Of a DNA stretch of 36,548 bases, positions 2,721 through 29,270 are shown piece by piece. Source of the stretch: Acidimicrobiales bacterium (GTDB taxonomy: Bacteria > Actinomycetota > Acidimicrobiia > Acidimicrobiales > RAAP-2); NCBI GenBank assembly GCA_017883135.1, contig JADGOE010000029.1, forward strand, positions 1 through 36,548, in the 5' to 3' direction. The notes beneath the pieces are model-generated. The model ran no database searches and was not told the origin of the DNA. It worked only from the letters and a program-made list of their open reading frames with translations. Made by a program: the position numbers and the translations under genes. The first letter of the stretch is position 1; each line of letters opens with the position of its first letter.

Positions 2721-4346
2721 AAGGGTGAACGTTTGGCCGGTCGAAGCGGATGGGCCACCGTTCCTCGAGACGGTCTGGCCGGTGAAGACCTGGGTGGTGG
2801 AGGTGCCGGCGGTGTCGGTGACCGTCAGGGTCGCAGTGAAGGGCCCGGGCAAGCCGTAGGTGTGGGTGGTCGTCGGTATCGAGGTGTTGGCGGTGCTGGC
2901 ATCCCCGAAGCTCCAGGCGTAGTTGGCGATGCTCCCGTACGGCGCCCCCGACGCCGAACCGTCGAAGCTTGTCGGGGATCCCGGCGGCGCCGGGGTCACG
3001 GTGAAGGACGCGGTGGGTGCCTGATCGAGGTTGATCCAGATGCCATAGGGATTGGTCGAAACGGTGATCGGGGTGCCGGGTGTGCCGGTGGCCAACGTGA
3101 TCGGGGTGGTGGTGCTATCGCTGCGATTGTTGATGTAGGCCGTCTTGCCGTCGGGGGTGATCGCTATGCCATAGGGGTTGGCGCCGACGGCGATCGGTGT
3201 GCCGGGTGTATTGGTGGACAGTGTGATCGGGGTGACGGTGTCCGACGCGTAGTTGGTGGCGTATGCGGAACTCCCGTCGGGGGTTATCGCGACGGCGTAG
3301 GGAGTGGTACCGACGGCGATGGGAGTGCCGGCCGTGTTGGTGGACAGCGTGATCGGGGTGACACTGTTCCCCCCGCTGTTGGTGACATACGCGGTCTGGC
3401 CGTTGGGGGTGATCGCAATGCCCACGGGATGGCTACCTACGGTGATCGGAGTGCCGGGTGTGTTGGTGGACAGCGTGATCGGCGTGACGTTGTTCGAGAG
3501 GTTGTTGGCGACGTAGGCGGTCAGGCCGTTAGGGGTGATCGCAATGCCGTAGGGGTCGGTCCCGACGGCGATGGGTGAACCCACCGCACGGGTGGACAGC
3601 GTGATGGGAGTCACGGTGGCCGCATTGCGATCGGCGGCGTAGGCGGTCTGGCCATCGGGGGTGATCGCGATGCCGTAGGGATTGACGACGGCGATGGGAG
3701 TGCCGGGCGTGTTGGTGGACACGGTGATCGGGGTGATGCTGTTACCCCCGCTGTTGGTGACATACGCGGTCTGGCCGTCGGGGGTGAGCGCCACGCCGTA
3801 GGGGTGGGACCCGACGACGATGTTGGTACCGGGCGTGTTGGTGGACAGGGTGATCGGGGAGACCCTGTTCGCGGAGTAGACCACCGCATAGGCAGTCGGC
3901 GGCGCCACATAGGTGTAGTGGTCGGCGGTCACTGTAGGACTCGTCCCCGCGCTCGTCGTGACCGTCACATCCACCGTGCCGGCCGATCCGGCCGGGGAGG
4001 TCACCGTGACCGTCGTGGCCGTGCTGGACAAGATGGTGGCGGTCGTGGCACCGAAATGCACCGCCGTGGGACTGGACAGGTCGGTACCCAGCACCGTGAC
4101 TCGCTGCCCGCCGGCGATCGGTCCCGAGTTGGCGATGATGCTGGTGACCGCCGGAGAAGTCGCCGCACCGGCAGGTCCTGCGGTCAGAACCGGGAACGCC
4201 ATCGCGCAGACGACGGCCACAGCAAGCCCCACCGCAAGACAAGCACCACGCGAACGCCCCTTTTTCGGCCCCTCGGTGCAACCGGGCGCCGCAGCGGGGC
4301 CCGCCATCCCTTCCGGACTCGCAGTACGCCGCTTCCAGAGTCGCAC
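1479..4346 (-). CDS. Secreted IPT/TIG, YVTN-propeller and PKD repeat protein, N-terminal part (frameshifted)
   Basis: This is a large exported surface or extracellular repeat protein. I choose the GTG at 4346 because GGGAGG lies 5 nt upstream; the frame is open further, to a TTG at 4403. After a basic start (KKGRSRG) comes a hydrophobic signal segment ending near GPAGAA. Domains follow in order: one IPT/TIG repeat; seven repeats of about 43 residues ([36 protein letters not shown]), which should form a seven-blade YVTN propeller; a PKD domain (APTASFTV...YAWSFGD...[17 protein letters not shown]); then IPT repeats of about 85 residues. The frame is lost inside the fifth post-PKD repeat, after GVAPTM, and ends in out-of-frame Pro/Arg/Ser-rich sequence at 1479. 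The homologous sequence continues in another frame to the window edge. The ligand is unknown; adhesion or cell-surface display is inference. The nearest upstream neighbour is divergent. Confidence 0.8.
3022..3900 (-). repeat. YVTN beta-propeller coding repeats, seven units of about 129 bp
   Basis: Seven tandem units of about 43 codons encode the propeller blades, with consensus [17 protein letters not shown] and [15 protein letters not shown]. The DNA is repetitive enough to be mistaken for another repeat class, but the units are strictly codon-phased and diverge mainly at blade-surface positions. Seven copies match a complete closed seven-blade propeller. Confidence 0.8.
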
Positions 4347-4665: not shown

Positions 4666-6159
4666 TTGGTGAAGTTTGACCTCGAGCACCCTACTCAACG
4701 GCAGCTTCACGACGGTGTGATCTGCGGTCTCATCGCGGAATCGATCCTCATCCCCATTCTGGTCACGGTGACCCTGGTCGGGCACCACCCGATCCGGTGG
4801 GGCTACATCGGAGCTGCCGTCGCCTGCATCTTCGTATCCGTGGTGTATCTCGCCCTCTTCGTTGCCGTCACCAAGGGGAAGTCGAACCTCCACACCCAGG
4901 CCAATGTCTGGTTCGTCATCGTCTGCCTTGCCATCTCCGGCCTCGCCTTCATCGAGCTTGCCACTTCCACTGATTACGGCCTCTACATGCCGGCCATGTT
5001 GGTCGGCGTTGTCTTCGTCTGCATCATCGGTGACCGCCGCATGCAGGTCGTCATCGATCTCTATGCCATCACGCTGATCGCGATGATCAGCTGGGTCGAA
5101 GGGCTGCGCGGCGCCGACCTAGCCACGACGGTCGTGGTCTATGCGTCGACGATTGCGGCAATCACCCTGATCTGTGCACGGACCGTTGGTTCGCTGACCG
5201 GACACGTCAACTTCCGTCAGGCCATCGACGCGCTGAACGAGACATTCGACCGGATCGGTCTCGGTGGTACGGGCACAGGCAGCGACACCTTCCAAGAGAT
5301 CTTCCGCTGTGGTCTCCCCCTTGTCACCGACATCCTGCCCGCCGAGCGGGTCGCCGTGTTCATCCGCAATGGAGCGCTCGGGAGGTTCTCCGTAGTGGCG
5401 ACCTGGCCGGCCCACCACGGGGATGTCTCCGGCCTTTCCCGGCTGCCGGCCCTCACCGAAGCGCTCGTGTACAACTCGGTGACCCTGGACTCCAGCCACT
5501 GCGTCATTCCGGTCGGGTACTCCAGTGACGGTGAGCTGGTGATGGTCGTCGAGCGCAGCCCGGGCGACGGGCGCGTCGACCAGCGATCCACCGAGGCGGC
5601 CGAACTGCTGGCCTCCGCGTTCCTCCGGGTGACCAGTCGCGCCAACTTCGTCGATGGGCTCCACGTCGAGAGCCGCACCGACCCGTTGACCGGGCTGGCC
5701 AACCGACGCAGTCTCTTCGAGCGGATCGAAGTCGAGATGGCCCACGCCCTCCGTTCCGAGACACCCTTGAGCGTGGCCATGATCGACCTCGACCACTTCA
5801 AGGAGTACAACGACCGCTTCGGACACGTCGCCGGCGACACCGTGCTTCGCTCCATCGCAGCGGTGATGGTGTCGAACATCCGCGGTCAAGACATGGTGGC
5901 GCGCTACGGGGGCGAGGAATTCTGCCTCGTGATGCCCGACACCGACCTGGTCGGCGGCCACCACTTGCTCGACAAGCTCCGGTCCGGAGGGCGCGACGCC
6001 ACGTCAGACTTCGGGGTGACCCTGTCTGCCGGACTCACCAGTTGGGATGGGATCGAGGAGACCACGTCGTTCATCGAACGGGCCGACCAGGCGCTCTACC
6101 GTGCCAAGGAGTCCGGTCGGGACCGGGTGGTGTCGATCCAGGCATTCACGGAGTTCTGA
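4666..6159 (+). CDS. Membrane-anchored diguanylate cyclase (GGDEF) with GAF-like domain
   Basis: This enzyme should make the second messenger c-di-GMP from two GTP at the inner face of the membrane. About 497 residues. Residues 15-180 hold five or six hydrophobic helices. Residues 200-325 resemble a GAF-type sensor (LPLVTDILPAERVAVFIRNG). The GGDEF domain starts at about 335 (TDPLTGLANRR) and carries the active-site motif GGEEF at 415-419. The inhibitory I-site RxxD (RGQD, 406-409) lies exactly five residues before it, so product feedback is likely. No EAL domain is present. The start is TTG 4666 or GTG 4669; neither has a strong ribosome-binding site, so the N-terminus is uncertain. It stands alone on its strand. 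The signal sensed by the membrane part is unknown. Confidence 0.9.
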   Translation: MVKFDLEHPTQRQLHDGVICGLIAESILIPILVTVTLVGHHPIRWGYIGAAVACIFVSVVYLALFVAVTKGKSNLHTQANVWFVIVCLAISGLAFIELATSTDYGLYMPAMLVGVVFVCIIGDRRMQVVIDLYAITLIAMISWVEGLRGADLATTVVVYASTIAAITLICARTVGSLTGHVNFRQAIDALNETFDRIGLGGTGTGSDTFQEIFRCGLPLVTDILPAERVAVFIRNGALGRFSVVATWPAHHGDVSGLSRLPALTEALVYNSVTLDSSHCVIPVGYSSDGELVMVVERSPGDGRVDQRSTEAAELLASAFLRVTSRANFVDGLHVESRTDPLTGLANRRSLFERIEVEMAHALRSETPLSVAMIDLDHFKEYNDRFGHVAGDTVLRSIAAVMVSNIRGQDMVARYGGEEFCLVMPDTDLVGGHHLLDKLRSGGRDATSDFGVTLSAGLTSWDGIEETTSFIERADQALYRAKESGRDRVVSIQAFTEF

Positions 6160-20922: not shown

Positions 20923-22134
20923 TCAGTCCCAGGCCCCGACCGAGGCGGTGGGGGTGAAGGCGACCGGCATCGTCTCGTAGCCGGAGACGAAGTTCGCCGC
21001 CCGCTTGGGAGGCTCGCTCTCCTCGACCAGGGACAGATCGGGCAGCCGGTCGAGCAGCCGGTCGAACATGACGGCCAGCTCCATGCGGGCCAGGCGGTTC
21101 CCCATGCAGAAGTGGGCACCGAACCCGAAAGCGATGTGGTCGTTGGGGGTCCGGCCGATGTCGAAGTGCTCCGGCCGGTCGAACATCCGTTCATCGCGAT
21201 TGGCCGAGGGGTAGAGCAACAGGAGCTTCTGCCCTTCGCGGAGGGTCTCCCCGTGGAGCTCCACATCCTTCGTCATCCGTCGCGCCATGTTCTTGATCGG
21301 TGACACCCACCGCAGCATCTCCTCGACGGCCGCCGGCATCAGGGAGCGGTCGTCGGAAAGGGCCCGGAACTGGTCGGGGTGCCGGAGCAGCTCGTACATG
21401 CCACCGCTGATCACGTGGCGGGTGGTCTCATCGCCACCGATCAGGATCAGCAAGGACTCGTAGATCAACGACGCCTCGTCCAGCCGGTCGCCTTCGATCT
21501 CGGCGTGGACCAGGGTCCCGATCAGGTCGTCGGACTGTCCGTCCCGCCGACGCTCATCGGCTACTGCGGTGATGTAGCCGGCGTACTCGACTGCTGCCAG
21601 GGCGGCCTGGTCCATGGCCCCGGGGTCGGGCGAGCCCAGCGCCTTCAGCATGTCGTCGGACCATCGCAACAGATCGTCACGGTCCTCTGGGGCCACACCC
21701 AGCATGTTGCCGATCACGATCATGGGGAGGGGCGCGGCGATGTCCGCCACGAAGTCAGCCGTGCCGGCCTCGCACACCCGATCGATGATCCCGTCGCAGA
21801 TTGCCCGGATACCGGCTTCGCCCGCCCGGATGCGCCGCGGGGTGAACCCTTCGCTGACCAGGCGGCGGCGGCGCACGTGTTCGGGGGCGTCGGTGTCGAT
21901 CATCATCGGTAGCGCATCGCTGTCGGGTCGGATGCCGCCCGCGTTGGAGAAGGTGCCAGGGTCCTTGGATATCTCCTTGATGTCGGCGTAGCGGGTGATG
22001 CCCCACACTCCCGCTGCTTCGTCGAAGTACGCAGGCGCGTGTTCGCGCATCCAGGCGAAGGCAGGGAACGGATCACCCCCGTAGAAGGTGCCGTCGGTCA
22101 GGCCGATAGTCAGGTCAGCGGGCGGAGTGGTCAC
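20923..22134 (-). CDS. Cytochrome P450
   Basis: A soluble bacterial P450 of 403 residues. It contains the I-helix oxygen-binding GGDETTRH, the K-helix ExxR (EEMLRW), and the heme loop FGFGAHFCMG with the heme-ligand Cys343. TDAPEHVRRRRLVSEGFTPR is the usual C-helix region. GTG 22134 is supported by GAGGGAG. Electron partners (ferredoxin, reductase) are not adjacent, and the substrate is unknown. A candidate promoter and palindrome lie about 110 bp upstream. Confidence 0.93.
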   Translation of the reverse strand: MTTPPADLTIGLTDGTFYGGDPFPAFAWMREHAPAYFDEAAGVWGITRYADIKEISKDPGTFSNAGGIRPDSDALPMMIDTDAPEHVRRRRLVSEGFTPRRIRAGEAGIRAICDGIIDRVCEAGTADFVADIAAPLPMIVIGNMLGVAPEDRDDLLRWSDDMLKALGSPDPGAMDQAALAAVEYAGYITAVADERRRDGQSDDLIGTLVHAEIEGDRLDEASLIYESLLILIGGDETTRHVISGGMYELLRHPDQFRALSDDRSLMPAAVEEMLRWVSPIKNMARRMTKDVELHGETLREGQKLLLLYPSANRDERMFDRPEHFDIGRTPNDHIAFGFGAHFCMGNRLARMELAVMFDRLLDRLPDLSLVEESEPPKRAANFVSGYETMPVAFTPTASVGAWD

Positions 22135-22235
22135 GGGGCTCCCTCGGTGTCGGCTCTGGCTGCTTCTGTGGGCACCGGGCCATGTCACCCGCACGCCATG
22201 GGGACGGGTACCGGTCATGGTCGGGTGCGGATCGT

Positions 22236-22270
22236 GTCCGGAGTATACGGACCTGGCAATTGCCTGTCGG
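22236..22270 (-). promoter_or_regulatory. Candidate promoter with palindrome over the -10 box, upstream of a P450 gene
   Basis: On the minus strand, CCGACA (22270-22265) and TATACT (22247-22242) are 17 bp apart, a sensible -35/-10 pair. The -10 lies inside an inverted repeat, GTCCG-TATACTC-CGGAC (22252-22236). A repressor bound there would block RNA polymerase. The repeat arms are only five bases, so chance is possible. No regulator gene is adjacent. It would serve the downstream P450 independently of the upstream one. Confidence 0.4.
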
Positions 22271-22310
22271 GACGTGCCTGCGCCGTACCTCGCCGCCGAC
22301 GTGTCCGGCG

Positions 22311-23558
22311 CTACCGGCGCTGCTGGAAGGAGAGGGGTACCCGGCAGACTCCTGCGTGCTTGTTGGTCCGCACCCGCCCGATCGGCCCGGTCAGGGCGAA
22401 TCCCTCGAGGCGGTCGAGGAGCTCGTCGAGCATCACCCGGATCTCCAGTCGGGCGAGATTGGCCCCCATGCAGAAGTGGGTCCGATGGCCGAAGGTCAGG
22501 TGGGGGTTTGGCGCCCGCCGGATGTCGAAGCGGTAGGGATCCTCGAAGACCGACTCGTGCCGGTTGGCGGACGGCCACCACAGGGTGACCTTGGCTCCTT
22601 GCTCGATGCGGTGGCCCCCCAGCTCCGTGTCACGAATGGCGGTGCGCCGGTTGTAAACGGTGGCCGTGGTCCACCTCAGGATCTCCTCGACGGCGGTGGG
22701 CATCAGGGAGCGATCGTCACGCACTGCTTCGAGTTGGTCGGGGTGCTCCATGAGCGCCACCAGGCCGAGGGCGATCGAGTTCCGGGTGGTCTCGCTGCCG
22801 GCCACAACCAACAGATTGAAGAACATGAGCAGCTCGAGATCGTCGATCGGCCGCGACTCACCGTCGTCGGCCTCAACTCGTCCGGTGGCCAGCGCCGACA
22901 GGATGTCGTCGCTGGGTGACCGCTTCCGTTCGGCGATCAAGTCGGCACCGTACGCGGCCATCGATGCCGCCGCCGCGGCCACGTCTTCGCTGCTCTCCCC
23001 CAGTTCTCGACCGTCGAAGTCGAGCGTGGTGTTCGACCAGGTCATCAGGTCGTGGCGATCGCCATCGGGGACACCCATCAGCGAGGCGACCGCCTGCAGC
23101 GGGAGCTCCACCGCCACGTCGGCCAGGAAGTCGCACGCTCCCCGCTCGGCGATGGCGTCGACGATCCGGCGGGCTCGCTCGCGGAGCTCGCCCTCCATGC
23201 GGGCCAGTGCCTTCGGCGCCACCGGCGGGGTGGCCAGACGGCGGATCCGATGATGGCGGGGATCGTCCATCATGTTGAGGAGGACGCCGGAGGCGAACCC
23301 GTAGGGAAGGTCCTGGATGATCGTGCCGCCACCCGCGGCCCCGGGGGACCGTTCCGAGGAGAACAGCTCGGGGTCGGCGGCCGCACTCATGATGTCGGCG
23401 TGCCGGCTCAGCACCCAGAATCCGACGCCGTCCGGCGTGTGATCGGTCGGGGGCTGCCACCACACGGGCGCCTCGCTCCGGAGCTGGGTGAAGACCTCTT
23501 CGGGGAAGCCGTCGGCGAACAGGTCGAGGTCGCACAGGTCGAGACCCGCCAGGTTCAT
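22311..23558 (-). CDS. Cytochrome P450
   Basis: A second soluble P450, 415 residues, only distantly similar to its neighbour. Motifs: I-helix AGSETTRN, ExxR in EEILRW, heme loop FGHRTHFCMG with Cys363, and MDDPRHHRIRRLA for the C-helix. The N-terminus (MNLAGLDLCDLDLFADGFPE) has the D-L-F pattern of actinobacterial steroid- and fatty-acid-type P450s, but the substrate is not inferable. ATG 23558 has GGAG upstream. The P450 at 20923 follows after 176 bp, so the two may share a transcript or be regulated separately. fumC lies 40 bp upstream. Confidence 0.93.
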   Translation of the reverse strand: MNLAGLDLCDLDLFADGFPEEVFTQLRSEAPVWWQPPTDHTPDGVGFWVLSRHADIMSAAADPELFSSERSPGAAGGGTIIQDLPYGFASGVLLNMMDDPRHHRIRRLATPPVAPKALARMEGELRERARRIVDAIAERGACDFLADVAVELPLQAVASLMGVPDGDRHDLMTWSNTTLDFDGRELGESSEDVAAAAASMAAYGADLIAERKRSPSDDILSALATGRVEADDGESRPIDDLELLMFFNLLVVAGSETTRNSIALGLVALMEHPDQLEAVRDDRSLMPTAVEEILRWTTATVYNRRTAIRDTELGGHRIEQGAKVTLWWPSANRHESVFEDPYRFDIRRAPNPHLTFGHRTHFCMGANLARLEIRVMLDELLDRLEGFALTGPIGRVRTNKHAGVCRVPLSFQQRR

Positions 23559-23598: not shown

Positions 23599-24990
<1,392 letters not shown>

Positions 24991-25043
24991 TCTCGGTTCC
25001 TTTCGTGCGGGTCCACCACGGTACCGGGTGTCCCGGAGGCTGT

Positions 25044-25496
25044 TCAGCCGGTCGCCCCGCGGCAGTCGGGACACAACCCGACCAGGTCGAACTGGTGACC
25101 GGTGACCACATAGCCCTGCTCTTCGGCGACCACGCGGGCGGCCTCGGCCATGGCCCGCTCGAGACGGGGCGAGGGTGCCACGTCCTCCACGTTGCCGCAT
25201 CGGCCACAGGCCAGGTGATGGTGATGGCCGGCCAGCTCCTCGGCCAGCTCGAAGCGCCCGTGATCGTCGACGCCCGAGACCCGCCGGACCACTCCGGCAT
25301 CGATCAGCGCAGTCACATTGCGGTAGGCGCTGCTCTGGGGAAGCTCGATGTCCGCCGCCAGGATCTCGGGGATGGAGAGCGGCCTCCCTGCGTCGGCCAG
25401 GGTCGCCACCAACGCCTGGCGCATGGGTGTGTACCGCTGGGCCAGGCCTGCCAGGCGCAGGGCGACCTGCTCGTGCACGTACGGTGCTGCGCTCAC
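25044..25496 (-). CDS. Fur-family metal-responsive repressor (Zur- or Mur-like)
   Basis: A 150-residue Fur-family repressor. The winged helix holds [13 protein letters not shown] and the recognition segment [19 protein letters not shown]. The dimerisation domain has the His cluster [11 protein letters not shown] (His91-94, Cys97, Cys100) and CPDC (Cys142, Cys145), the structural zinc set. GTG 25496 is only 10 bp after the second permease gene, so it is the last gene of the metal-import operon. A Fur-type box precedes the operon (29247-29263), so negative autoregulation is expected. Zn, Mn and Fe sensing cannot be separated by motif alone. Confidence 0.88.
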
Positions 25497-25506
25497 GCCG
25501 GCAACA

Positions 25507-26397
25507 CTACGGCGTCCGGGCCGCCGGCCGGGATCCCCGCCGCCGCCGGGTGGAGGTGACGGCGAAGGCCACCAGGTACACGCCGGTAGCCACGCCGAGG
25601 ATCCCGAAGCTGGGAGGCATCCTCGGGAACAGGTACGCCAAGGTCAACCCGGACCACATGGAGACCACCGCGATACCGGCCGAGAGCCACACGGCGACGA
25701 ACGGTCGCGAGGTGAGCTGCTGGCTGGCGCCCCCCGGTGCCGCCAGCAGCCCGAGCAGCAACAGGGCGCCGACCGCCTGGGTGGCGACACCGGCGGTGAC
25801 GCCCACCAGGACGAAGAAGACGTAGCCGAGGGCCCGCACCGGCACGCCGCGGGCGGAGGCCACCGCCTGGTCGAGGCTGGCGAACAGCAGCGGCCGACCG
25901 ACCGCGACGAAGACGAGGACCACGCCCAGGGCCACGATCGCGTCGGTCAGGGCCTGCGAGGAAGACAGCCCGAAGATCGAACCGAAGAGCACGTTCACAC
26001 CGGCGTTGGATCCCACCCCGCCGGTACCGCTGCGGGTGGTGGTGAAGATGGAGAGGAACAGGGCACCGAGCCCGAGGACCCAGGCGAACACCGATCCGAT
26101 CACGGTGTCGTCGGCGTTGGCCCTCCGGCCCAGGCCCGCCATCACGAGGGCCACGGCGATGCAGCCGCCGTACAGCCCGACCCGTAGATCGATGCCGAAC
26201 GCCAGCGCGGCCAGCGCCCCGGTGAAGGCCACGTGCGAGAGGGCGTCGCCGCTGAACACCTGGCCCCGGAGCACCACCACATAGCCCACCAGGCCAGCTG
26301 CCAGGGCGATGCAGGTGCCGGCCCCGAAGGCCGTCCGCATGAACGGGTGGGCCAGCAGGTGAGCGATCCCCACCAGCGGATCGACGGTGGCCATCAT
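25507..26397 (-). CDS. ABC metal transporter permease (ZnuB/TroC family)
   Basis: An integral membrane permease of 296 residues with about eight to nine hydrophobic helices, belonging to the ABC-3 family of Zn/Mn importers. AGLVGYVVVLRGQVFSGDAL and SHVAFTGALAAL give the cytoplasmic loop that contacts the ATPase, and AVGALLLLGLLAAPGGASQQ is the conserved late helix. The ATG overlaps the stop of the other permease (ATGA at 26394-26397). The two permeases are different in sequence and probably form a heterodimer. The Arg-rich tail is cytosolic. Confidence 0.9.
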   Translation of the reverse strand: MMATVDPLVGIAHLLAHPFMRTAFGAGTCIALAAGLVGYVVVLRGQVFSGDALSHVAFTGALAALAFGIDLRVGLYGGCIAVALVMAGLGRRANADDTVIGSVFAWVLGLGALFLSIFTTTRSGTGGVGSNAGVNVLFGSIFGLSSSQALTDAIVALGVVLVFVAVGRPLLFASLDQAVASARGVPVRALGYVFFVLVGVTAGVATQAVGALLLLGLLAAPGGASQQLTSRPFVAVWLSAGIAVVSMWSGLTLAYLFPRMPPSFGILGVATGVYLVAFAVTSTRRRRGSRPAARTP

Positions 26398-27329
26398 GCC
26401 CCGACCACCATGCCACGCGGGGAGCGGCCCCGTGCGTTCGGGGTTCCCGACGGCGGCCGATCGCGCAACCGGCCGGCCGCTGCCCGCCATGCCGCAGCCG
26501 TGACATAGACGACAAAGCCGATCGTCGTGACATAGAAGCCCACCGGGTAGACCGAAAAGAAGGCCACTCCGAGGGAGAGCCAGGTGGTGACCACGGCAAG
26601 CGCGATCGTGAGCACGAAGCTCACCGCGGGCCGGGCGGTGATCTGTTGGGCTGCAGCAGCCGGCATCACCAGGAGGGCGAACACCAAGAGCACCCCGGTG
26701 ATCTGGCTGACCTCGGCCGCTGTGCAGCCGAGAAGCACCAAGAAGGCCACCGACAGCGCCCGGACCGGAACCCGTCGGGCCTCGGCCACCTCGGCATCGA
26801 CCGTGGCGAAGAAGAGGGGTCGGGCCAGCACGGCCAGCACCACGAGAACTGCCACCGCCACGGCCCCCAAGGCCACCACTTGCCCGTTCGAGATACCGAG
26901 GAAGGTGCCGAAGAGCAGTCCGGTGAGGCTGTCGAGGAACCCACCGTAGAGACTGACGAACAGGGCCCCGCTGGCAAGGGCAAAGGCCTGGACGGTGCCG
27001 ATCACCGCCGACTCCTCGCTCCTCGCCCGTCCCGAAGGCGACCGCGGCACGACCGCGATGATCAGTGCGGCCACGATGCTGGCAGCGAAGTAGCCGACCG
27101 TGGCACTGAGGCCCAACCAGATGGCGGCGGCGGCACCCGGAAACGACACCACGGCCAGGGTGTGGCCGGCGAAGCTCTGGCGTCGCAGCACCATGAACCA
27201 ACCGATGGCGCCCGCGACCACGGCCACGATGGTGCCGGCCCGATAGGCGTTGACCATGAAGTGCAGGGCGAAGATCTGATGCAGGTCGTCCCCTGGGTTC
27301 CACACGAACCCGTTGGCTGCCGGGTTCAT
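26394..27329 (-). CDS. ABC metal transporter permease (ZnuB/TroC family)
   Basis: The first of two permeases, 311 residues and polytopic. It has the family cytoplasmic loop (GWFMVLRRQSFAGHTLAVVS) and the helix QITGVLLVFALLVMPAAAAQ. The start is taken as ATG 27329, 31 bp after the ATPase stop, without a strong ribosome-binding site; ATG 27257 is an alternative. The C-terminal 30 residues are Arg/Pro-rich. Its TGA overlaps the ATG of the next permease, so synthesis is coupled. Confidence 0.9.
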   Translation of the reverse strand: MNPAANGFVWNPGDDLHQIFALHFMVNAYRAGTIVAVVAGAIGWFMVLRRQSFAGHTLAVVSFPGAAAAIWLGLSATVGYFAASIVAALIIAVVPRSPSGRARSEESAVIGTVQAFALASGALFVSLYGGFLDSLTGLLFGTFLGISNGQVVALGAVAVAVLVVLAVLARPLFFATVDAEVAEARRVPVRALSVAFLVLLGCTAAEVSQITGVLLVFALLVMPAAAAQQITARPAVSFVLTIALAVVTTWLSLGVAFFSVYPVGFYVTTIGFVVYVTAAAWRAAAGRLRDRPPSGTPNARGRSPRGMVVGA

Positions 27330-27360
27330 GTCGAGCCCGATGGCGGACGCGCCGATGCCG

Positions 27361-28230
27361 TCACCGCGGCCGCCCGGAGTGCCGGTCAGCGTGGTGTGCC
27401 GGTGCCTCGGGGTGCCCGACGACCACCAAGCGCCCGTCTGAGGTCCGCAGCACCTCGATCGCCGTCCCGTACAGCTCGCTGAGGGTCGCCGAGTTGATGA
27501 CCTCCTCGGGGGCCCCGCTCACCGTCCCACCGTGGGCCACGTAGACCACGCCGTCGAGGGAGGAGACGATCGGGTTGACGTCGTGGGCGACGATGAGGAC
27601 GGTGATCCCGTACCGCTTGGAGATGTCGGCGATGAGCCCGGCCACCGACGCCTGGCTGGGAAGGTCCAGGCTGTCGAGGGGTTCGTCGAGCAGCAACAGC
27701 CGGGGCCGACGGACCAGGGCCTGTGCGATCAGCAGTCGCTGCTGCTCTCCCCCTGACACCTCGCCGATCGGGCGATGCGCATACGAGGTGGCGCCGACCA
27801 GGTCGATCACCTCGTCCACCCGCTGGCGCCGGGCTCGACGCCCGGCGAACAGCGATGCGCCAGGGAGCGGCAGTCCCCACCGGTCGCCGTCGCTGCCCAG
27901 TCGCACCACGTCGATGCCCCGGATCCGCAGGCTCGGGTCGAAGTTCCTCCGTTGCGGCAGGTAGCCGATCTCCTTTCCGGTACTTCCGGGAGGCCCGCCC
28001 AGTACGGTCACCGACCCCTCGGCCAGCGGCACCGTCCCGAGGATGGCCTTGATCAGCGTCGACTTGCCCGCACCGTTGGGCCCCAGGACGGCCACGAACC
28101 GTCCCTCGTCGATGCGCAGGTCGACGTTCGACCAGATGGTCCGGCCCCCGAGCCGAGCGGTGGCGCCGACGAAGCGCACCGCCGGTTCGCCCGGGATGAC
28201 CGGGGTCGGTGCCGGGGCCTGCTCAGCCAT
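27361..28230 (-). CDS. ABC metal transporter ATP-binding protein
   Basis: The ATPase of the metal importer, 289 residues. Walker A is GPNGAGKST, the Q-loop is YLPQRRNFDP, the signature is SGGEQQR, Walker B is LLLLDEPLDSLD and the switch His is in VAHDVN. ATG 28230 starts 8 bp inside the end of the binding-protein gene, so the two are translationally coupled. The last 40 residues, with HPEAPAHHADRH, form a His-containing tail not typical of the core domain; it could contact metal, but that is speculative. Confidence 0.93.
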   Translation of the reverse strand: MAEQAPAPTPVIPGEPAVRFVGATARLGGRTIWSNVDLRIDEGRFVAVLGPNGAGKSTLIKAILGTVPLAEGSVTVLGGPPGSTGKEIGYLPQRRNFDPSLRIRGIDVVRLGSDGDRWGLPLPGASLFAGRRARRQRVDEVIDLVGATSYAHRPIGEVSGGEQQRLLIAQALVRRPRLLLLDEPLDSLDLPSQASVAGLIADISKRYGITVLIVAHDVNPIVSSLDGVVYVAHGGTVSGAPEEVINSATLSELYGTAIEVLRTSDGRLVVVGHPEAPAHHADRHSGRPR

Positions 28231-29206
28231 CGGCTCTGGCCAGGGCTGACTCGATGCCGAGGAGCTGCTTCGTCTGCCACGCCTGGAACGTGGCACCGGC
28301 GGGCTCCAGTGTTTCGGTGATGGTGGCCACCGGGATGTGGGCTGCCCGCACCTCTCTCAGTTGCACCTGGATGTCCGGTGTGACGTTCTGACTGTTGTAC
28401 ACGTAGATCTTGATCTGATGGGTCCTGATCTGGTCGTCGATGATCTGCTTGTCGGCCGCCGAGACATCGGTGCCCTCGCTGATGGCCCTCAGGAACGACG
28501 GCGGCGTGATCAGATCGAGGCCGAGGGCAGGCGCGAGCATGGCGAAGATCGACTCCGATGCCCCGACCGGAGCGCCCGCATGGCTCGCTTTGATGGCGGA
28601 GACGGCAGAGTCGTACGGCCGTAGGGCCACGGTGGTGAACCTGACCTCCTGGCGGTCGAAGTACGACCGATCGGACGGGTCGAGCGACGCGAAGTCACCC
28701 ACCAGGGCGTGGACGACCGCCAGCACGTCGGCCGGGTTGTACCAACGATGCGGATTGCCACCCGGTGCCACGCCGAGCAGCGTCCCCACGTCGAGCGTGG
28801 TCGGATGCCCCCCGTCCGCGGCCAGCAGCTTGGGGACCCACGGGTCGTAGCCGATGCCGTTCTCGATGACCACCTGCGCATCGGCCAGGGTGCGGGCATC
28901 GGCCGCAGTCGGCTCATAGGCGTGAGGATCCGTGTTCGGATTGGTAATGATACTCATCACGTGGACACGGTCACCGCCGAGCTGGGTCGCGATGCTGCCC
29001 CAGAAGTTCTCCGCTGCCACCACCCGGAGGACAGGCCCCGTCGCCCCACCGGTGCTCACGCTCCCCGTAGGCAGCCCAGCCGTTCCACAAGCGCTCAACC
29101 CCAAGGAGGTCAACACAACCACGGTGACCATCACCAGGACCGCGGCCCGACCCGTTCCTCCCCCGCCCAGCCGCTGCGGAGGCGATGACCAGTCGCGGTC
29201 GGGCAC
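28223..29206 (-). CDS. Metal ABC transporter substrate-binding lipoprotein (TroA/ZnuA fold)
   Basis: The extracellular metal-binding component, about 327 residues. An N-terminal hydrophobic segment ends in the lipobox LSAC, so it is a lipoprotein. Candidate ligands by position are His in DPHAYEP, His in NPHRWYNP and Glu in GASESIF, which matches the Mn-type PsaA ligand rather than the His of ZnuA. The fourth site, normally Asp or Glu, reads YNSQNVTP. No His-rich loop is present. GTG 29206 is preceded by GGAG. It heads the operon and has a Fur-type operator upstream. The metal (Mn, Fe or Zn) is unresolved. Confidence 0.88.
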   Translation of the reverse strand: MPDRDWSSPPQRLGGGGTGRAAVLVMVTVVVLTSLGLSACGTAGLPTGSVSTGGATGPVLRVVAAENFWGSIATQLGGDRVHVMSIITNPNTDPHAYEPTAADARTLADAQVVIENGIGYDPWVPKLLAADGGHPTTLDVGTLLGVAPGGNPHRWYNPADVLAVVHALVGDFASLDPSDRSYFDRQEVRFTTVALRPYDSAVSAIKASHAGAPVGASESIFAMLAPALGLDLITPPSFLRAISEGTDVSAADKQIIDDQIRTHQIKIYVYNSQNVTPDIQVQLREVRAAHIPVATITETLEPAGATFQAWQTKQLLGIESALARADG

Positions 29207-29241
29207 GGCGCGGACTCCTCTCCTCGGCGGACAGTCCACAC

Positions 29242-29270
29242 TCTATATGGGAATCATTCTCATTACAAGA
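29242..29270 (-). promoter_or_regulatory. Promoter with Fur/Zur-type operator for the metal operon
   Basis: On the minus strand, TTGTAA and TAGAGT are 17 bp apart and could form the -35 and -10 boxes. The spacer is filled by ATGAGAATGATTCCCAT (29263-29247), an inverted repeat with 7 of 8 matching positions around a central base, the 7-1-7 style of Fur-family boxes. It sits about 41 bp before the GTG of the binding-protein gene. The bound repressor is most likely the Fur-family protein encoded as the last gene of this operon. Confidence 0.65.

Follow-up and report, generated by a model that had tools for sequence, protein, structure and literature searches.

The window analysed here is a 36,548-nucleotide stretch that forms contig 60 of the draft genome (2.96 Mb, 126 contigs) of an Acidimicrobiales bacterium of the RAAP-2 lineage, and it carries on its minus strand a run of five genes for a metal importer and a Fur-family protein. 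This protein is probably a non-orthologous replacement of Zur, the regulator found beside the same type of transporter in sister genomes, and it would act on a self-repressed importer whose substrate is most likely zinc. As a whole, the explanation that we consider probable is that the five genes form a single transcription unit, in which a high-affinity ABC (ATP-binding cassette) importer is produced together with its own repressor. What the sequences show is the set of genes, the operator and its conservation, the layout of the promoter, the regulator swaps and the mutual exclusion of the two regulators among the genomes sampled; DNA binding, repression, co-transcription, the metal and the sensing site are inferred. 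Self-regulated metal-import operons are already well known, and the interesting part of this one is the regulator. The features of the operon and its control region are as follows.

29263..29268, minus strand: -35 hexamer TTGTAA, abutting the operator
29248..29262, minus strand: predicted Fur-type 7-1-7 operator TGAGAATGATTCCCA, with 6 of 7 pairs matched, filling the spacer between -35 and -10
29240..29245, minus strand: -10 hexamer TAGAGT, at a spacing of 17 nt
28223..29206, minus strand: substrate-binding lipoprotein of the ZnuA/TroA family, PF01297 (ZnuA) 1.5e-37, lipobox LSAC
27361..28230, minus strand: ABC ATPase, PF00005 (ABC_tran) 3.3e-30, overlapping the binding-protein gene by 8 bp
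26394..27329, minus strand: ABC-3 permease A, PF00950 2.2e-39, after a 31-bp gap from the ATPase gene
25507..26397, minus strand: ABC-3 permease B, PF00950 3.8e-37, with an ATGA overlap with permease A
25044..25496, minus strand: Fur-family repressor gene of a clade apart from Zur, PF01475 3.8e-12, after a 10-bp gap from permease B; R71, E83, A85 and two CxxC motifs

The case for replacement begins with the distribution of the two regulators. The repressor was used to search 61 genomes of the family, the window's included, and 27 of them hold a relative at an E-value of 2.6e-31 or better. None of these 27 encodes Zur at E ≤ 1e-30, whereas 23 of the 34 genomes without the clade do so (Fisher 1.2e-8, uncorrected for relatedness). 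The same holds across the class, where the clade, counted at E ≤ 1e-22, is present in 127 of 148 genomes: Zur occurs in 0/127 genomes with the clade versus 11/21 without it (Fisher 2.8e-11, likewise uncorrected for relatedness). The two class samples were taken as the same draw, their listed handles agreeing, and all 11 Zur-bearing genomes are among the 20 listed of the 21 that lack the clade. Weaker matches to the Zur profile, between 1e-18 and 1e-24, occur in seven genomes including G000, and proved to be other Fur-family proteins in all of the six that were checked.

The transporter itself links the two groups of genomes. Among 20 loci for it from clade-free genomes, 16 have a Zur gene in the cluster and two (L182 and L197) have one elsewhere in the genome, with no Zur found in the genomes of the remaining two, L189 and L192. 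By profile, the regulators linked to these transporters are true Zur proteins (S. coelicolor Zur 1.4e-52, M. tuberculosis FurB 2.8e-49). The L189 locus (genome G013) has the same transporter subfamily beside another Fur-family type, recognized by eye at 5669-6073, with a GACT-like site, TGATACTTAGTCTCA, upstream. A tree of binding proteins was built from 43 rows, comprising 20 of the 26 clade loci (near-duplicates and one cut-short row were omitted), the 20 clade-free loci and three references. In it the regulator label has to change five times, and starred branches force three or more of these changes, against a mean of 13.7 for shuffled labels; the labels are therefore clustered and yet have switched several times. 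At L188 and L181, both linked to Zur, the binding protein shares 60% and 58% identity with that of the window, compared with 49%, 40% and 34% for L039, L049 and L054, whose partners belong to the window's clade. Both L188 and L181 have a divergently oriented Zur gene and adjoin nfo, the deoxyribonuclease IV gene that also lies upstream of the window's operon (TIGR00587 1.9e-65), and they look like a swap of regulators in place.

Conservation of the metal ligands runs through the whole of this subfamily. The ligand positions of the window's binding protein are H95, H153, E218 and E298, and the pattern H,H,E,E is invariant in 40/40 aligned relatives, 20/20 with the window's clade and 20/20 without it, 16 of which are clustered with a Zur gene. 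Such importers are mostly present once per genome: the window's binding protein is the single PF01297 match of its genome, and among 60 other genomes of the family 46 have one match and three have two (two of these being partial pieces). A more distant H,H,E,E-type transporter, with 35% identity, is found on a plasmid of Streptomyces chartreusis (L071); no match to the window's repressor was found in 12.8 kb there, a stretch that was not searched for Zur.

The regulator belongs to the Fur superfamily, with a PF01475 score of 46.9 bits against a cut-off of 23.1 and the two CxxC motifs formed by C97, C100, C142 and C145. It falls below the cut-off of every NCBIfam model for Fur, PerR and Zur, the best score being 53.3 bits where 220 are required. 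A profile of its clade hits structures of Fur, PerR and Zur without distinction, its nine best matches lying between 6.6e-20 and 8e-13, and matches only weakly (5.1e-8) 7dh7, which we take to be the Zur of Synechococcus. In a regulator tree of 97 rows, a quick tree of few columns in which 57 of 60 class-level loci are represented (at least 41% identity to a query), the window's clade of 78 rows and the Zur clade of 11 rows are separate, with SH-aLRT (Shimodaira-Hasegawa-like approximate likelihood ratio test) supports of 95 and 98. The window's protein thus lies outside the Zur clade, and it has no match to the M-site pair Asp65/Cys79 of canonical actinobacterial Zur (S. coelicolor numbering). 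The Asp of that pair, which would stand at position 71, is present in 0/78 clade members, as is the Cys at position 85, and both are present in 11/11 Zur rows. The relevant part of PMC6103462 names Cys79 as an M-site residue of S. coelicolor Zur and reports that the C79S substitution virtually abolished binding.

If this regulator replaces Zur without its Asp and Cys ligands, the sensing site must be built differently. Positions E83, H91-H94, D105 and H134 are invariant in 78/78 clade members, and cysteines beyond the four structural ones are absent from 64 of the 78, the other 14 having one or two. The site is probably made from E83 with H92/H94 and/or H91/H93/E113/H134. A precedent for zinc sensing in the absence of an M-site Cys is provided by Synechococcus Zur, which, in the portion of PMC11077047 that deals with it, has no M site and holds its regulatory zinc at the D site.

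The tightly coupled run of genes in the original prediction was confirmed in the sequence, junction by junction, and Pfam agrees: a PF01297 protein, an ABC ATPase and PF00950 permeases in one run make a ZnuABC/TroABCD-type importer. The preferred start of the binding protein is the GTG at 29206, which is preceded by GAGGAGAGGAG and yields the lipobox LSAC; the mechanically called open reading frame begins at 29239. Upstream of it, the repeat proposed to fill the promoter spacer was likewise found, as TGAGAATGATTCCCA lying between TTGTAA and TAGAGT at a spacing of 17. The pattern TGAGAATNATTCTCA occurs at two or fewer mismatches in two places in the 2.96-Mb genome, once as the operator (one mismatch) and once elsewhere (two mismatches), and its reversed control pattern gave 0 matches in the genome. 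The other site, C7:5502-5516 (L068 at about 4003-4017), is situated immediately ahead of a lipoprotein-like gene for which Pfam gives no match. A Rfam scan of the window returned zero matches.

Operator conservation was examined at the 26 family loci, including the window, that have DNA upstream of the binding-protein gene. A related repeat is present there in 26/26 loci at four or fewer mismatches to an AAT or ACT form, in 22 at three or fewer and in 19 at two or fewer, against means of 2.8, 0.35 and 0.1 of 26 loci in 20 shuffles; as both consensus forms had been read from the same loci beforehand, these counts measure conservation and are no independent prediction. By script, 14/26 loci have a TTG- hexamer with a -10 lying 17-18 nt away, and 17/26 have a TAnnnT -10 at that distance, L054 being added by eye to both counts. 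The start codon of the binding protein follows the -10 by 6-8 nt in 12 loci, where the mRNAs look leaderless, and this spacing gives the promoter independent support. Six loci (L041, L042, L043, L046, L047 and L059) have no TAnnnT -10, L044 and L048 have a spacing of 16 nt, and a generic sigma-70 scan did not list the promoter of the operon. At the class level, 59 loci were used (60 were fetched), and 24 of them by our count carry, close to the 5' end of a gene for a regulator or a transporter-like protein, a site that differs from one of three patterns at no more than two positions; this is a raw count with no shuffled background, and some ATPase matches in it may belong to other transporters.

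The negative feedback that had been proposed, with the repressor as the last gene, is supported by comparison, since the type of operator tracks the type of linked regulator across loci. Sites within two mismatches are found in 19/26 loci of the window's clade versus 0/18 loci from Zur-containing genomes; the corresponding figures are 22/26 versus 6/18 at three or fewer mismatches and 26/26 versus 7/18 at four or fewer. Self-regulation by the linked Fur-family protein is thus supported by these patterns. In the proposed mechanism, the metal-loaded Fur-family dimer would bind TGAGAATGATTCCCA between the -35 and -10 when metal is plentiful, excluding RNA polymerase, and would release the operator when metal is scarce, so that importer and repressor would both be produced. 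The regulator follows the transporter, and so ends the operon, in 14 of the 28 family loci of the clade; it is divergent in eight (L044 and L054-L060) and comes first in six (L041-L043 and L046-L048). In those six a shifted variant of the repeat lies between regulator and transporter, and the site is not expected to control the regulator there.

The recognition helix reads PQSS(A/V)YR(N/T/S) in 20 of the 28 regulators, ALSSAYRN in L045, PRSSAYRH in six and PKSSAYRH in L060. Sites of the P(R/K)SSAYRH lineage (L054-L060) are nearest the GACT form in 6/7 cases, L060 being mixed, and those of the remaining loci are nearest the GAAT form. A simple recognition code, with the PQ..N helix reading GAAT and the PR..H helix reading GACT, was considered and rejected on account of L136, L142 and L163, which are nearest GACT and have other helices; we therefore claim only an association by lineage between helix and site. 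Genome G050 carries two modules, one for each regulator lineage (L038 on C131 and L060 on C3).

A number of observations weigh against the replacement of Zur on a self-repressed zinc importer. At the thresholds used, neither regulator is found in 11/61 family genomes, and many of the sampled genomes are incomplete drafts. PF01297 has no match in 11 of the 60 other genomes of the family, two of which, G009 and G056, still have Zur. The best named models for the regulator are Fur and PerR, that for the E. coli-type Zur being weaker, and its R71 and A85 align with the sensor Asp and Cys of S. coelicolor Zur. At its third ligand position the binding protein has a Glu, a residue that it shares there with a SitA-like protein of Pantoea, and yet the Zur-linked copies have the same Glu. 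Sites within three mismatches of the operator forms also occur in a third of the loci from Zur-containing genomes (6/18), the regulator gene precedes the site in 6/28 family loci, and at the class level many members of the clade do not adjoin a transporter. The neighbors of three class-level members encode MaoC, HIT, CopC/CopD and transglutaminase-like proteins and an ABC ATPase, among which nothing is diagnostic of zinc.

Given the rest of the interpretation, zinc remains the probable metal, because the transporter subfamily pairs with canonical Zur in sister genomes and because the sampled genomes have the one regulator, the other or neither; the common occurrence of one such importer per genome points the same way. 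The most serious competitor is an operon of the same design, self-repression included, that serves manganese (or iron), with the regulator as an actinobacterial counterpart of Mur on a Sit/Mnt-type importer and the metal having changed along with the regulator. The zinc-type His is absent from the third ligand position: E218 aligns with a Glu in the SitA-like protein of Pantoea and with a His in two proteins that are annotated as zinc-binding. The sensor region is free of Cys and has E83, as in Fur-type proteins, the best named models are those for Fur and PerR, and the operator resembles Fur boxes, which we count in favor of manganese or iron. Manganese was in fact favored at first because of the Glu and was demoted when the same residue proved invariant in the copies clustered with canonical Zur. 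The mutual exclusion of the window's clade and Zur also speaks against it, as does the presence in the genome of Nramp, another possible route for manganese or iron, and of a DtxR-type regulator; Nramp and DtxR-type regulators usually serve these two metals. We therefore regard manganese or iron as unlikely, although by no means negligible. The relevant part of PMC3851752 gives H50, H123, E189 and D264 as the ligands of the manganese protein MntC and states that PsaA uses one and the same set of ligands to bind manganese and zinc, so that the Glu ligand alone is indecisive.

It is also conceivable that one of two Fur paralogues elsewhere in the genome reads the operator, with the linked gene merely riding along. 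The genome has three Fur-family genes and the 7-1-7 repeat of the operator is of a generic Fur type, but operator type follows the linked regulator from locus to locus, both paralogues are placed outside the window's clade in the tree, and the paralogue on C34 adjoins a nickel transporter; we consider this improbable. That paralogue is encoded divergently from a NicO nickel transporter (L064; G000 C34: 4963-6102 and 6210-6668), and is thus probably a nickel regulator. Control by the linked protein is accordingly the reading that we retain. That the clade is, across the class, a stand-in for Zur in zinc uptake, swapped several times on the same transporter, with a cysteine-free zinc site and GAAT/GACT half-sites that shift with the recognition helix, is a broader proposal to which we would give slightly less than an even chance.

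All five genes share their strand with nfo upstream and fumC downstream, and the original prediction had extended the operon's influence to the latter by read-through, linking it to metal state. The features concerned are given below.

25018..25023, minus strand: -10-like TACCGT before fumC, occupying the place of GGTAGGGTC in relatives
23599..24990, minus strand: fumC, Lyase_1 3.7e-111, TIGR00979 9.6e-228, 53 bp past the Fur-family gene

The distance of 53 bp was confirmed, and together with the shared strand and a scan that found no terminator between fur and fumC (which carries little weight in GC-rich DNA) it would allow transcription from the operon promoter to include fumC and so tie fumarase to metal. 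The link itself fared poorly, since the neighborhood is lineage-limited: fumC adjoins the operon in 8/28 family loci of the clade and lies within about 5 kb in 0/60 class-level loci, some loci in both sets ending at contig ends. Among 14 family genomes without the operon at this place, nfo is directly upstream of fumC in seven, the two genes are separated in L166 by a 41-residue fur remnant, and nfo is outside the 1.5 kb examined in six. The GGTAGGGTC box before fumC is kept in 5/8 loci with the operon (three from one genus) and is found in 2/14 without it. Read-through into fumC is possible and bears no sign of use, and a regulatory tie of this kind seems to us very doubtful. The adjacency of nfo and fumC in genomes without the operon instead indicates that these two genes often stay together while the operon, as a module, is gained and lost between them. 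The remnant in L166 (G015, at about 1261-1383) belongs to a genome of the same genus that itself carries a distant version of the module at another place (C114, L054), and probably reflects loss in place. Past fumC, on the same strand, lie two adjacent cytochrome P450 genes (window 20923-23558).

The operon may be compared with systems that are already known. Mur is a Fur-family regulator of the four-component manganese importer sitABCD, and from that description it differs from the present case in its metal, which is predicted here to be zinc. The znuABC-zur operon of S. coelicolor is similar in combining an importer with the Fur-family repressor of that importer; znuABC has one permease gene, whereas the window has two, and the window's regulator is of another clade and has neither the sensor Asp nor the Cys of Zur. 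PMC6103462 describes zur as autoregulated where it shares an operon with other genes, such as znuABC. The corresponding part of PMC2628430 places a dyad operator and a sigma-70-like promoter before troA in troABCDR of Treponema denticola, with TroR as a DtxR-family, Mn/Fe-dependent regulator. Four transporter genes, a repressor gene at the end and an operator and promoter before the binding-protein gene are common to that operon and to the window's, the difference being that the repressor here is of the Fur family. A literature survey with capped result lists, judged by titles and the openings of abstracts, found no description of the clade or of a replacement of Zur in this class, although a record may still exist in print. 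The initial interpretation of the operon is thus partly supported; the identity of the regulator and its exchange with Zur had no place in it.

If this explanation is true, the operon and its relatives amount to a natural experiment, in which a transporter keeps its metal ligands while the Fur-family repressor is swapped between clades with different sensor residues. This would put metal selection by Fur-family proteins to a direct test: either zinc is sensed without the Cys of Zur, or the transporter has changed its metal with its ligands unchanged. It would also assign a function to a clade that is found in 127/148 genomes of the class and whose member in the window falls below the NCBIfam cut-offs.

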